A DNA stretch of 51,625 nucleotides from Chloracidobacterium sp. CP2_5A (GTDB lineage: Bacteria > Acidobacteriota > Blastocatellia > Chloracidobacteriales > Chloracidobacteriaceae), in NCBI GenBank assembly GCA_002254845.1, contig NKPT01000019.1, positions 1 through 51,625 on the forward strand, in the 5' to 3' direction. Below the pieces are notes generated by a model that saw only the letters and a program-made list of their open reading frames with translations, did not search any database and was not told the origin of the DNA. The number at the start of each line of letters is the position of its first letter. Position 1 is the stretch's first letter. Below, piece by piece: positions 38,528-51,625 of the stretch. The position numbers and the translations under genes were made by a program.

Positions 38528-38603
<76 letters not shown>

Positions 38604-47383: not shown

Positions 47384-47860
47384 ATGCAGAACTTGAAGCG
47401 ATCCTTGTCCCTGTGCGCCGTGGCGGCAACCGGCTTCCTTGCCGCCTGCGTTGTGAAAGACAACGTGCCGCCGCCGCCGCCGATGAAGCCAAAGGAAGAG
47501 AAAGTCAAGACGGTTGAGCCGGACAAGCCGGCCACGGAAACGAGCGCGAAGCCGGCTGAGCCGGCCAAGCCGGCGGAAGGCGCGCAAGATCCGCTCGTCG
47601 CCAAGGGCCGCGAACTCTACAACGGCAACGCCTGCGCCGGCTGTCACGGCGACAAGGGACAAGGAGTCCTGCCGAACGCGCCGAAGTTCACTGACGCCAA
47701 CTGGCAGAAGCAGGAGAAAGACGAAGAAATTATCGCTTCGCTCAAGGGCGCAAAGGCGGCGCAGGGCATGCCAGCGTTCAAGGGCGGCAACGGCACGGAT
47801 GACGAGCACAAGGCGCTGGTGGCTTATATTCGCTTCCTTGGCAAGGAAGCCGGCAAGTAG
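47384..47860 (+). CDS. Lipoprotein c-type cytochrome
   Basis: A 158-aa exported protein. The N-terminus ends in a lipobox (GFLAAC), so the mature protein is anchored by a lipid at its cysteine. A linker of about 45 residues rich in Pro, Lys and Glu follows, then a single class I cytochrome c domain with heme site CAGCH and a likely axial Met in QGMPAFKGG. The role is electron transfer at the membrane surface. GAAGGAG precedes the ATG. It is a paralogue of the next gene and they probably share a transcript. Confidence 0.88.
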   Translation: MQNLKRSLSLCAVAATGFLAACVVKDNVPPPPPMKPKEEKVKTVEPDKPATETSAKPAEPAKPAEGAQDPLVAKGRELYNGNACAGCHGDKGQGVLPNAPKFTDANWQKQEKDEEIIASLKGAKAAQGMPAFKGGNGTDDEHKALVAYIRFLGKEAGK

Positions 47861-47956: not shown

Positions 47957-48358
47957 ATGTCCAGCAGGCGATTCAATCCTATGGGAAAACTGGCGCTGAT
48001 CGCGGTCTTGGCGGCGTTGGCCGAGGGCTTGGCGGCGGCGCGCGGCGCGGCCGATGAAGCCGCCGCTAAGCGCCTGGCGCGCGGCAAGCGGCTTTACAAC
48101 GGCGCGGGCGCGTGCCTTGCCTGCCATGGCGCGGATGGCAAGCCGAGCGTCCCCGATGCGCCCGACCTGACCGATGCCGCCTGGCAGCGCAAGCGCTCCG
48201 ACGCGGACTTCGCCAAAGCCCTCGCGGAAGGCAAGGGAACGATGCCGCCGTTCAAAGGCTCGGCGGCGGACATCGAGGCCCTGGTGGCATACGTCCGCTC
48301 GCTTGCCAAGCGAGCGCCGCAAGCCGATGCGTCAGGCTTTAGTCAACGCTTGGAATAA
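47957..48358 (+). CDS. Small c-type cytochrome
   Basis: A 133-aa exported cytochrome. The N-terminal hydrophobic segment (MGKLALIAVLAALAEGLA) is a signal peptide; the heme site is CLACH and the axial ligand is probably the Met of GTMPPFKG. The domain resembles that of the preceding lipoprotein cytochrome (LYNG...AC..CHG and AWQRK in both), so the pair likely arose by duplication. GAGGGAG lies about 12 bases before ATG 47957; a later ATG (MGKLAL) would also work. It ends 6 bp before ychF. Confidence 0.85.
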   Translation: MSSRRFNPMGKLALIAVLAALAEGLAAARGAADEAAAKRLARGKRLYNGAGACLACHGADGKPSVPDAPDLTDAAWQRKRSDADFAKALAEGKGTMPPFKGSAADIEALVAYVRSLAKRAPQADASGFSQRLE

Positions 48359-48364
48359 CGCCTT

Positions 48365-49423
48365 ATGAAAGTAGGCATTGTCGGCTTCGCTGGCGCGGGC
48401 AAGACAACCGTCTTCAATGCCCTGACCGGGCTGACGGCTGAGGTCGGCGGCTACGGCGGCAAAGACCGCCCCAACCTGGGCAATATCAAGGTGCCGGACG
48501 CGCGCGTGGATAAGCTCGGCGAGCTATACCGCGCCAAGAAGCGCGCCTACGCTGAAGTGGCGTTTGTGGATGTCGCCGGGCCGGCGGAAGGGTCGAGCGC
48601 CGGGGGGCTGGACGCCAGGCTGGTCGCCGCGATGCGCGACGTGGACGCGCTGGCGCACGTCGTCCGGGCCTTTCCTGACCCGCTCGGAACGCGCCCGACC
48701 CATCCAGCCGCCGATGTCGCCAGCTTTGACGCCGAACTCATCCTGTCGGACCTAATTCAAGTTGAAAATCGCCTGGAGCGCCTGAAAAAGGATCAAAAAG
48801 CGACGCCGCGCGAGCGCGACCTCTTTGCCCGCTGCAAAGCGGCGCTCGACGCCGAGCAACCGCTCCGGGCGCTGGATTTCGACGATGAAGAGCGGCACTT
48901 GATGACTGGCTTTCGCTTCCTTTCGCTCAAGCCGCAGATGATCCTGCTCAACGTCGCCGAAACCGACATCGCCGCTGGCGTCCCGGCGGCTGTTCAGGAA
49001 GCGGCTCAGGCGCGCGCCATTCCGACCGTCACGGCGATGTGCGGACAGGCGGAAATGGACATCGCGCAGCTTGCGCCGGAAGAACAAGGCGATTTCTTGC
49101 GCGACCTCGGCTTGACGGCCCCAGCGCGCGACCGCTTCATTGTGGCGGCTTACGGGCTGCTCGACCTCATGAGCTTTTTGACGGCCGGCGAGGACGAGTG
49201 TCGCGCCTGGCCCATCCAGCGCGGAACGAAGGCTCAGCGCGCGGCCGGCAAGATTCACTCCGACATCGAGCGGGGCTTCATTCGCGCCGAAGTCATCGCC
49301 TACGACGACTTCATCGCCTACGGGTCGGAAGCCAAGTGCAAGGAAGCCGGAAAGCTGCGCCTGGAAGGCAAGGAATACGTCGTTCAGGATGGCGACATCA
49401 TCCATTTTCGCTTCAACGTTTGA
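48365..49423 (+). CDS. ychF: YchF-family translation-associated ATPase
   Basis: A 352-aa Obg-like P-loop NTPase (OLA1/YchF) that binds ribosomes and prefers ATP. Walker A is GFAGAGKTT (7-15), and the switch region FVDVAGPAEG has no catalytic Gln, as in the family. The C-terminal TGS domain ends YVVQDGDIIHFRFNV, complete to the stop. It is the last gene clearly belonging to the main chromosome. Confidence 0.94.
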   Translation: MKVGIVGFAGAGKTTVFNALTGLTAEVGGYGGKDRPNLGNIKVPDARVDKLGELYRAKKRAYAEVAFVDVAGPAEGSSAGGLDARLVAAMRDVDALAHVVRAFPDPLGTRPTHPAADVASFDAELILSDLIQVENRLERLKKDQKATPRERDLFARCKAALDAEQPLRALDFDDEERHLMTGFRFLSLKPQMILLNVAETDIAAGVPAAVQEAAQARAIPTVTAMCGQAEMDIAQLAPEEQGDFLRDLGLTAPARDRFIVAAYGLLDLMSFLTAGEDECRAWPIQRGTKAQRAAGKIHSDIERGFIRAEVIAYDDFIAYGSEAKCKEAGKLRLEGKEYVVQDGDIIHFRFNV

Positions 49424-49475
49424 TCCAAAGCAAGTCATTTCCCAGGGTTTCACAAGCTTGCTTGGCAGCCCTAAA

Positions 49476-49510
49476 GCAAAGTCAAAACCCCGGAATATGC
49501 CGGGCTTTGC
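49476..49510. terminator. Hairpin at the boundary with foreign sequence
   Basis: GCAAAG/CTTTGC outer and CCCGG/CCGGG inner arms around the loop AATATG. Read on the minus strand it ends in a T-rich run (GGTTTTGACTTTG). It resembles intrinsic terminators of Pseudomonas and probably ends the phosphatase-like region. Confidence 0.6.
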
Positions 49511-49623
49511 GTTTCCGTAGATTGCCTGAGGCAGCCTGGCTTTGTCTGTGCAAAGCGACTATGCAGGCGCATGCGAAGATTGAGCCAACGGGCGGAAGGC
49601 GCAATTGACCTTCGCGGAGGCCT

Positions 49624-50054
49624 CTACCTCGGCGCAGAAGCCTGTACCAGGGCGATGGCGCCAGCCTGCGGGATACCAGCGCCTCGATCAGAATGCGCGC
49701 GGCGATCAGCCCAGCGCGATCGGAGCCACCCTTATAGCGGATGGCCAGCGATTGCCCTTCGCGTAGCTGGTCAAGGATCGCCTGGCGGGATTCCCGCCAA
49801 CCCTGGCCGAAATCTTCGAGCGGCGACTGATCATCGGATACCGGCAGGCGATGCCAGCTGAGATCGAGGGTCTGGCAGCGCTTGGCAATCCGTTTGGGCC
49901 ATTAGCGACCAGCTCGTTCTGTGGCACCAGGGTGTAACCGCCGAACGCCGGCTTGCTTTTGAGGGCAGCCAGCGTCTCCTCAAGCGAGGTGTCCTTGGCG
50001 CTTGGGCAGGGCGTGAAGATCAGCTTGCCAGGAATGCCGGGGATGCTGACTCAT
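49624..50054 (-). pseudogene. Broken dual-specificity-phosphatase-like gene
   Basis: On the minus strand, pieces in different frames rebuild a protein of the CDKN3/dual-specificity-phosphatase type: GIPGKLIFTPCPSAKDTS, then LVPQNELVANGPN, then CQTLDLSWHRLPVSDDQSP and KGGSDRAGLIAARILIEA. At least two frameshifts separate them, and the P-loop that should read HCxxGxxR has RYKGGSDR, so the catalytic cysteine is lost. The start of the gene is also shortened. Such phosphatase genes sit downstream of arsH in some Pseudomonas arsenic clusters (from memory). It is not functional as written. Confidence 0.55.
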
Positions 50055-50579
50055 GCGGCCGTTTGCGTCGAACTCCAGATAGGCTCCTTGGGCGCCGACG
50101 ACTAGTTAAGGGATAGTGAACAAGCGCATCCAGCGACCGAGTACACGCAGCTGGTTAACCACGTTGCTGCCAGGGTCTTGCGCTGGCTATGGGCGAATCC
50201 CGCCCATGGCCAGCGGCACCCAGTCGATCTGCGCCTTGAACACGGCCGTCATCGAGCCGTGACGTTCGGGCGAGCACCACACCTGGCCTTCCGACCACTG
50301 CATCAGCTCGCGCAGCTCCTGCACCTTGGGGTGGCTGTCCGGAGCATCGTCCGGCAGCGGTAAACCACGCGGATCGAAGATGCGGGTCTCGGCGCCGAAA
50401 CGTTGCAGCAGACGCGCGGCCTCTTCGGTCAGCAGGCGGCTGAAGGAGCGCTCGCGGCAGGAACCGTAAAGCAGCAGGATGCGCGGCGGGTGAGTCGAAG
50501 CCGGCTCGATACCGAGCTTGTCTGGACTCGGCAGGTCAGCCAGTTCGATATCCAGGTTGGGTAGCAGATCGTCTTGCAT
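50055..50579 (-). pseudogene. arsH: Truncated arsH (NADPH-FMN reductase)
   Basis: The first 130 residues are an intact ArsH start ([40 protein letters not shown]) ending GGIRP and then a stop. Past that point other frames contain NVVNQLRVLGRWMRLFTIP, a stop, and YLEFDANGRM, so the gene has lost at least about a dozen codons and gained a frameshift and a stop. ArsH reduces organoarsenicals and oxidants. Its start lies 2 bp after the acr3 stop, as in a normal ars operon. Range is approximate at the lower end. Confidence 0.75.
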
Positions 50580-50581
50580 GG

Positions 50582-51625
50582 TTACTCCTGCGGAACAGTG
50601 GCAGCGCCGTCAAACCAGCGGCGTTTGAGCCACCAGGCGACACCCACCAGCGAGATCAATACCGGCACTTCCACCAGCGGGCCGATCACCGTGGCGAAGG
50701 CGACTGGCGAGGCCAGCCCGAAGGTGGCGATGGCCACCGCGATGGCCAGCTTGAAGTTGTTGCTGGCGGCGGTAAAGGCCAGTGCCGTGGTGCGCGGGTA
50801 GTCAGCCTCCAGCAGCTTGCCCATCCAGAAGCTGATGAATAACATCACCACGAAGTAGATGGTCAGCGGGACGGCAATGCGCAGCGCGTCCAGCGGTAGC
50901 TGCAACACCATGTCGCCCTTGAGGCTGAACATCGCGACGATGGTCAGCAGCAGCGCCACCAGGGTCAGCGGACTGATGCGCGGGATGAAGTGCTCGCTGT
51001 ACCAGGCCTCGCCCTTGCGCGCGATCAGCAGCTTGCGAGTGAGGAATCCTGCCAGGAAGGGAATGCCCAGGTAGATCAGCACCGACTCGGCGATATCGAG
51101 GAAACTGGTCTCGATCACGCTGCCCTGTAGGCCGAATAGCGGCGGCAGCAGGCCGAGGAAGATCCAGGCGTACAGGCTGAAGAAAAGGATCTGGAAGATG
51201 CTGTTGAAGGCCACCAGGCCGGCGACGTACTGGTTGTTGCCACCGGCGATCTGGTTCCATACCAGCACCATGGCAATGTAGCGAGCCAGGCCGATCAGGA
51301 TCAGACCGGTCATGTATTCGGGCTGGTCGCGCAGGAAGATCACTGCCAAGGCGAACATCAGCACCGGGCCGATCACCCAGTTCTGAATCAGCGACAGCGC
51401 CAGAATGCGCTTGTCGCTGAAGACCTGCGGCAGTTCCTCGTATTTCACCTTGGCCAGCGGCGGATACATCATCACGATCAGGCCAATGGCGATTGGAATG
51501 TTGGTCGAGCCCACGGACAGGCTGTTCAGCCAGACCGGAAAGCCCTCGAACAGGCTGCCCAGGCCCACGCCCAGTGCCATGGCGAGGAAGGTCCACAGGG
51601 TCAGGTAGCGATCCAGGAAGGACAA
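50582..51625 (-). CDS. acr3: Arsenite efflux permease Acr3, 5'-partial
   Basis: A 347-residue open frame of the ACR3 arsenite permease family with about ten membrane helices; it is open to the last base, so the true start lies outside the window (the TTG at the edge is probably internal). The start region [21 protein letters not shown] and [12 protein letters not shown]-like segments ([20 protein letters not shown]) match. It exports arsenite using the proton motive force. It is followed by arsH, 2 bp downstream. Unlike the adjacent pieces it has no frameshift. Codon use (CTG, GCC, CAG) is like Pseudomonas and unlike the main part of the window. Confidence 0.85.

Follow-up and report, generated by a model that had tools for sequence, protein, structure and literature searches.

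A probable pseudomonad-borne genomic island, decayed and carrying an arsenic resistance remnant, at the 3' end of ychF in Chloracidobacterium

Genomic islands inserted at the 3' ends of conserved protein genes, as in the locus described here, are represented by SGI1 in mnmE/trmE and SXT in prfC, although in both of these the target gene and the integrase differ from those of the islands found at ychF. The closest systems to the present one are four islands likewise inserted at this point of ychF, namely those of two Pseudomonadaceae genomes, G260 (about 29 kb) and G192, and those of Aeromonas caviae KAM479 and E. coli AR_0128. All of them keep an integrase next to ychF: a tyrosine integrase gene follows ychF directly in G260, an integrase is present likewise in G192 and E. 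coli AR_0128, and in Aeromonas the gene reads in two frames, the one with the arm-binding domain starting approximately 160 bases past ychF. The four integrases are 74–94% identical to one another. The scan of 10 proteins of the G260 island revealed a cargo of type I restriction-modification, a KAP NTPase, and zinc and heavy-metal genes, whereas the E. coli AR_0128 island (L147, 212–32986) carries the RADAR genes rdrA and rdrB, besides a DarT-family protein and numerous remnants of transposases. Its far side, at a distance of 32.7 kb and ahead of ycgV, is marked by a repeat of about 100 bases whose first part is the ychF 3' end. A simple search for such a far-side repeat in Aeromonas, G192 and G260 gave only matches of 11–13 bases, and that of G260 was recognised only via its alignment with a contig of the present genome (C286, see below). 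Parts of the Aeromonas integrase region are matched by 691 of 5426 E. coli genomes, the position relative to ychF having been read in AR_0128 only. In the titles and abstract openings of the open-licence papers searched, no family of islands at the ychF 3' end is mentioned for Pseudomonadaceae, Aeromonas, E. coli or Acidobacteriota; one paper uses ychF for a tree (PMC1796617), a second places a pneumococcal prophage between dnaN and ychF, i.e. on the upstream side of ychF (PMC6375853), and a third reports Chloracidobacterium and acr3 genes from hot-spring mats, with no mention of an island (PMC13171826).

The window analyzed here, a stretch of 51,625 nucleotides, is a single contig (C222) of a Chloracidobacterium genome of 3.41 Mb in 385 contigs. 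Three of the six congeners used for comparison are assembled as two contigs each, the contig compared measuring 2.64–2.68 Mb. Members of Chloracidobacterium are thermophilic phototrophs of the Acidobacteriota, and the host is probably a hot-spring phototroph only distantly related to Pseudomonas. The host gene ychF (48365–49423, plus strand; TIGR00092, 291.2 bits against a cut-off of 279.2) is 89% identical at the DNA level to that of congener G002. Homology with the congeners stops at the ychF stop codon, past which (49423) the foreign DNA starts. Thus, the insertion lies exactly at the ychF 3' end, as in the ychF-specific islands, and the last 15 bases of the gene (49409–49423, plus strand), 14 of which are equal to the ychF end of G260, constitute the left attachment core. 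The abrupt switch to Pseudomonas-like DNA after ychF, already proposed in the earlier note, is borne out by composition: the tetranucleotide distance of 49424–51625 is 0.417 to the host, where 42 overlapping host segments of equal length reach a maximum of 0.290, vs. 0.241 to pseudomonad DNA. The DNA similarity of the contig tail to Pseudomonas, which the same note had anticipated, is also clear from the alignments, reaching 93% to a P. shirazica plasmid over the last 1.4 kb.

The first stretch past the stop codon (49424–49581, plus strand) corresponds to the arm preceding the integrase gene in the intact relatives. The left end of the G260 island matches the window over 49364–49581, where the local alignment stops; identity is 76% over 178 bases for 49404–49581 against G260 (20 of these bases belonging to ychF), 70% over 112 bases for 49404–49515 against G192, and about 70% against Aeromonas, whereas the arm of E. 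coli AR_0128 is weakly alignable. The arm contains a terminator-like hairpin (49489–49504) that is weak in the window (z -0.9) vs. strong in G260 (z -4.7) and Aeromonas (z -2.6). Searching 398 Pseudomonadaceae genomes with 49404–49650 yielded eight matches, the longest being those of G260 and G192. The other six cover 29–37 bases, and five of them (G182, G402, G244, G382 and G300) are confined to the hairpin, for which chance, shared terminators or old island scars are all possible. Among 369 sampled genomes of the class of G260 the arm was recovered at length only from G260 itself, with one further match of 40 bases, and among 395 sampled genomes of the host phylum, besides the own genome, it was recovered from none, one match of 24 bases lying outside the arm. 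The low frequency in both of these samples indicates that the arm is rare at the search sensitivity used.

The arm is joined to the arsenic resistance remnant through a short segment (49582–49659) that begins where the G260 alignment ends, and it is here that the integrase gene of the relatives is missing. A tblastn search with the integrases of the relatives against the window tail and C286 gave no match, and of the three integrase loci of the own genome only one is matched, weakly, at 22–28%. The absence of an integrase beside ychF, read as loss, makes the element a remnant rather than an active member of the group. The island is probably immobile, and it could not leave by itself if no integrase is encoded within its middle part.

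The other side of the insertion is found on a second contig. In all six congeners lepB is the next conserved gene after ychF, following it directly in four, with an insert of approximately 2.5 kb between the two genes in the other two (loci L101 and L102); an island of the kind seen in the window is absent at ychF from all six. Apart from an 81-base match elsewhere, the lepB region of the own genome sits on a separate contig, C286, and it is on C286 that congener homology picks up again on the lepB side. This contig starts with about 519 foreign bases, followed at 520–532 by a copy of the ychF 3' terminus that lacks one T and differs at one base from the left copy, and by lepB from position 550. 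The attachment core is thus directly repeated at both ends, the C286 copy being imperfect. Residues 5–205 and 206–505 of C286 are 79% and 80% identical, respectively, to the right end of the G260 island, with an alignment extending to 532; in G260 this right-end match reaches the attachment core, 29.1 kb from ychF. Aeromonas is homologous to this end over 130 bases. The tetranucleotide distance of the short C286 end (0.484) is indistinguishable from that of the host (mean 0.449, maximum 0.565). When both foreign ends were searched separately in a plasmid collection, both matched a single Aeromonas caviae record, 49 kb apart, the match of the left query running from ychF into the arm; the left query also matched a P. 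shirazica plasmid and an Azospirillum ychF. The Aeromonas record (NZ_AP026896.1; loci L114 and L115) is a circular sequence of 4.9 Mb with 18 annotated features; although labelled as plasmid pKAM479_3, it looks like a chromosome.

Since C286 and the window tail match opposite ends of the same G260 island, the two contigs display both ends of one kind of insertion, and the tail of C222 and the beginning of C286 would belong to one insert. We consider, with a probability of roughly 0.92, that the contig end is the left end of a decayed, pseudomonad-borne integrative genomic island inserted at the ychF 3' end. Elements of this kind are known; what is unusual is the host. Because the two ends of a site-specific island can be read on the far side of a phylum boundary, the evidence for transfer is stronger than similarity of genes alone would give.

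The remainder of the window is occupied by three minus-strand genes in the order of the arsenic resistance cassette of the Pseudomonas shirazica plasmid CP075568. The first is a phosphatase-like gene (49660–50049; aligned to L082), frameshifted and missing both ends, whose copy in the relative is annotated as a "cyclin-dependent kinase inhibitor 3 family protein". It is followed by an arsH remnant (50050–50579; TIGR02690, 199.2 bits against a cut-off of 292.25, covering 1–125 of the 219 model positions), so that a full-length ArsH is not encoded; the frame is open for 130 codons (50187–50579) and then broken by frameshifts and by deletions of 31 and 199 bases. The third gene is acr3. The plasmid is conjugative and its cassette uninterrupted in the annotation; further on it has arsC, arsR and the gene of an ArsJ-associated dehydrogenase, of which the window shows none. 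Ungapped identity to the plasmid is 93.1% over 50187–51625 and 87.5% over 49648–50186, and the first 128 codons of arsH differ from it by 19 synonymous and 8 non-synonymous changes. Relative to this closest relative, eleven indels (nine of 1–2 bases, one of 31 and one of 199) are counted, all of them within 49678–50194, and none within 50195–51625; the counts come from one alignment, and exact placement varies with the alignment settings. The frameshifts therefore belong to the phosphatase-like gene and to arsH.

The compared stretches of G260, G192 and Aeromonas contain no ars match beyond 29 bases, no ars genes are annotated in the island stretch of E. coli AR_0128, and megablast of the ars segment against the E. 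coli genomes yielded nothing similar. No ars-bearing ychF island was found in any relative, so that this cargo was encountered in such an island only in the present genome. This would fit a separate entry of the cassette, for instance by a transposon or by homologous recombination, into a ychF island that had settled in the host earlier. The unequal identities, 76–80% for the island ends against G260 vs. 93% for the ars genes against the Pseudomonas plasmid, point in the same direction. However, little of the ends is coding sequence, which may let them diverge faster, and G260 need not be the nearest relative of the island, so that we regard a separate entry as unlikely, yet as the strongest of the competing explanations. 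Among 35 genomes behind the ars loci, 31 match the ychF-island integrases, the best-scoring match being 38% identical (51% in one short piece), and among the loci listed, at most 30, none contains ychF and no donor emerged.

In acr3 the alteration is of another type. The frame (50582–51625, minus strand) scores 428.5 bits against the TIGR00832 profile of the ACR3 family, well above the curated cut-off of 282.8, and remains open to the contig end, which cuts it 5 codons after the start of the relative. According to a passage of a review (PMC12607644) that gives the Acr3 motifs A and C, the Cys is required for transport and the Glu binds arsenite in the Bacillus subtilis protein; the conserved Cys is also cited as essential in a passage of PMC9671657. 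In the window, motif A (GxARCxA) reads GLARYIA, with Cys replaced by Tyr, and motif C (NNFE) reads NNFK, with Glu replaced by Lys, whereas both residues are kept in all 81 relatives (80 loci and the plasmid copy). At the 160 columns invariant in these relatives the window Acr3 departs four times, the Cys and Glu included. As a control, 68 of the 82 sequences never depart from the columns invariant in the others, and the window sequence alone departs at more than three; this control is loose because the relatives themselves define the invariant columns. No solved structure matched the window Acr3 at E 0.001, and nothing was found in the literature on an Acr3 with Cys129 and Glu305. The acr3 gene is thus not frameshifted but altered at the active site; Acr3 has probably lost its function, and this ars copy would be non-functional.

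One may ask whether selection has rather maintained acr3 for another substrate, with a modified pocket. Indeed, it contains no indels vs. eleven in the neighbouring 0.5 kb, and its codon changes on the window lineage, polarised with five other loci as outgroups, amount to 11 synonymous vs. 6 non-synonymous (5 and 1, respectively, on the plasmid lineage). This branch, however, may partly predate the transfer, which would likewise explain the low ratio, and two residues reported as needed are replaced among the four changes at invariant columns. Moreover, an open acr3 with both residues present exists elsewhere in the own genome. Retention for a new substrate therefore appears very unlikely, and decay of the island cargo is the preferred reading for acr3 also.

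Slightly more improbable still is an assembly or binning chimera, i.e. a pseudomonad contig end wrongly joined to the host ychF. The join does lie close to a contig end, within bases that are conserved between the phyla (14 of 15), but C286 provides independent evidence in the form of the opposite end of such an island, inserted at the identical point, and a chimera would be needed twice: with two ends at one host point on two contigs, a single wrong join cannot explain the data. In addition, when the sequences flanking the plasmid ars cassette were searched for in the own genome, only a match of 43 bases and one of 575 bases, 65% identical, over the dehydrogenase gene were recovered, and the ars genes carry damage that would not be expected of a working pseudomonad operon. 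The suspected chimera could in this way be judged without reads, by locating the other insertion end on a second contig. Of the two possibilities left side by side in the earlier note, that of a real transferred cassette in decay is supported by the indels, the replaced Acr3 residues and the island ends, and that of a chimeric contig end of low-quality sequence finds no support in view of C286. Its description of minus-strand acr3, arsH and a phosphatase-like gene with frameshifts holds for the last two genes and fails for acr3, whose frame is open and whose active site is altered; the integrative island as the unit, the attachment site in ychF and the loss of Acr3 residues had gone unnoticed.

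The anatomy of the locus suggests how the island may have been acquired. The tyrosine integrase of a pseudomonad-borne island would have recombined the attachment site of the island with the last 15 or so bases of ychF, the gene gaining an island-borne 3' end together with the terminator-like hairpin, and its original end being left on the far side beside lepB. The island would have brought a Pseudomonas-type ars cassette (acr3, arsH and the phosphatase-like gene). Later, the integrase would have been lost from the left end, the genes at the 3' side of the cassette would have decayed by indels, and acr3 would have lost its arsenite-site residues. Entry by means of an integrase, and transfer in the direction from pseudomonad to host, are what we infer, the latter because of the composition, the integrase-bearing relatives and Pseudomonas as the source of the nearest ars sequences. 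The locus thereby puts a stage of decay on view in which cargo and integrase are lost and the host gene is spared. An island of the tRNA-site type appears unlikely, since a tRNA scan of four loci found the attachment sites to be without tRNA, a tRNA-Gln 3 kb before the ychF stop of Aeromonas being the only one detected. An RNA family scan of the window returned a single tRNA at 38528 and none around the ychF join.

The last 15 bases of ychF equal those of G260 at 12 to 15 positions across the six congeners, and at 9 or 10 positions in five relatives that are more distant; in two of these five, ychF ends at another position. As these bases are near-identical in pseudomonads and in the host genus, an integrase recognising them could use the host ychF, and the conserved attachment site suggests why a jump across phyla could work. 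One may tentatively go further and propose that the ychF 3' end is conserved enough for a single family of proteobacterial integrases to carry metal-resistance islands from phylum to phylum by this route, the gap between ychF and lepB then being a recurrent entry point in the genus. This wider proposal is doubtful; the recurrent entry is suggested because two congeners hold a different insert at this junction, one of which (L102), unrelated to the island, encodes a permease of the ArsP type (ArsP_1) and a sigma-70-type factor.

A second ars operon of the genome is open and lies at the start of contig C277 (L103, 574–3125, minus strand), the remainder of the contig, where read, being host-like. 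It comprises an ArsR-type regulator, ArsI, an ArsC-like protein and the Acr3 with Cys and Glu mentioned above; Acr3 and ArsI score above their cut-offs, the regulator and the ArsC-like protein below. Its composition is foreign (0.413 vs. a host maximum of 0.234 at 3 kb), and it is most similar (71–74%) to Tistrella, Aquabacterium, Paraburkholderia and Burkholderia plasmid DNA. This operon may have made the ars copy of the island dispensable. Two observations concern the neighbourhood of ychF on the host side. A neighbouring gene resembles acsF by eye, and the two adjacent open reading frames before ychF (47384–47860 and 47957–48358) each look like a small c-type cytochrome (CxxCH), perhaps the result of a duplication.
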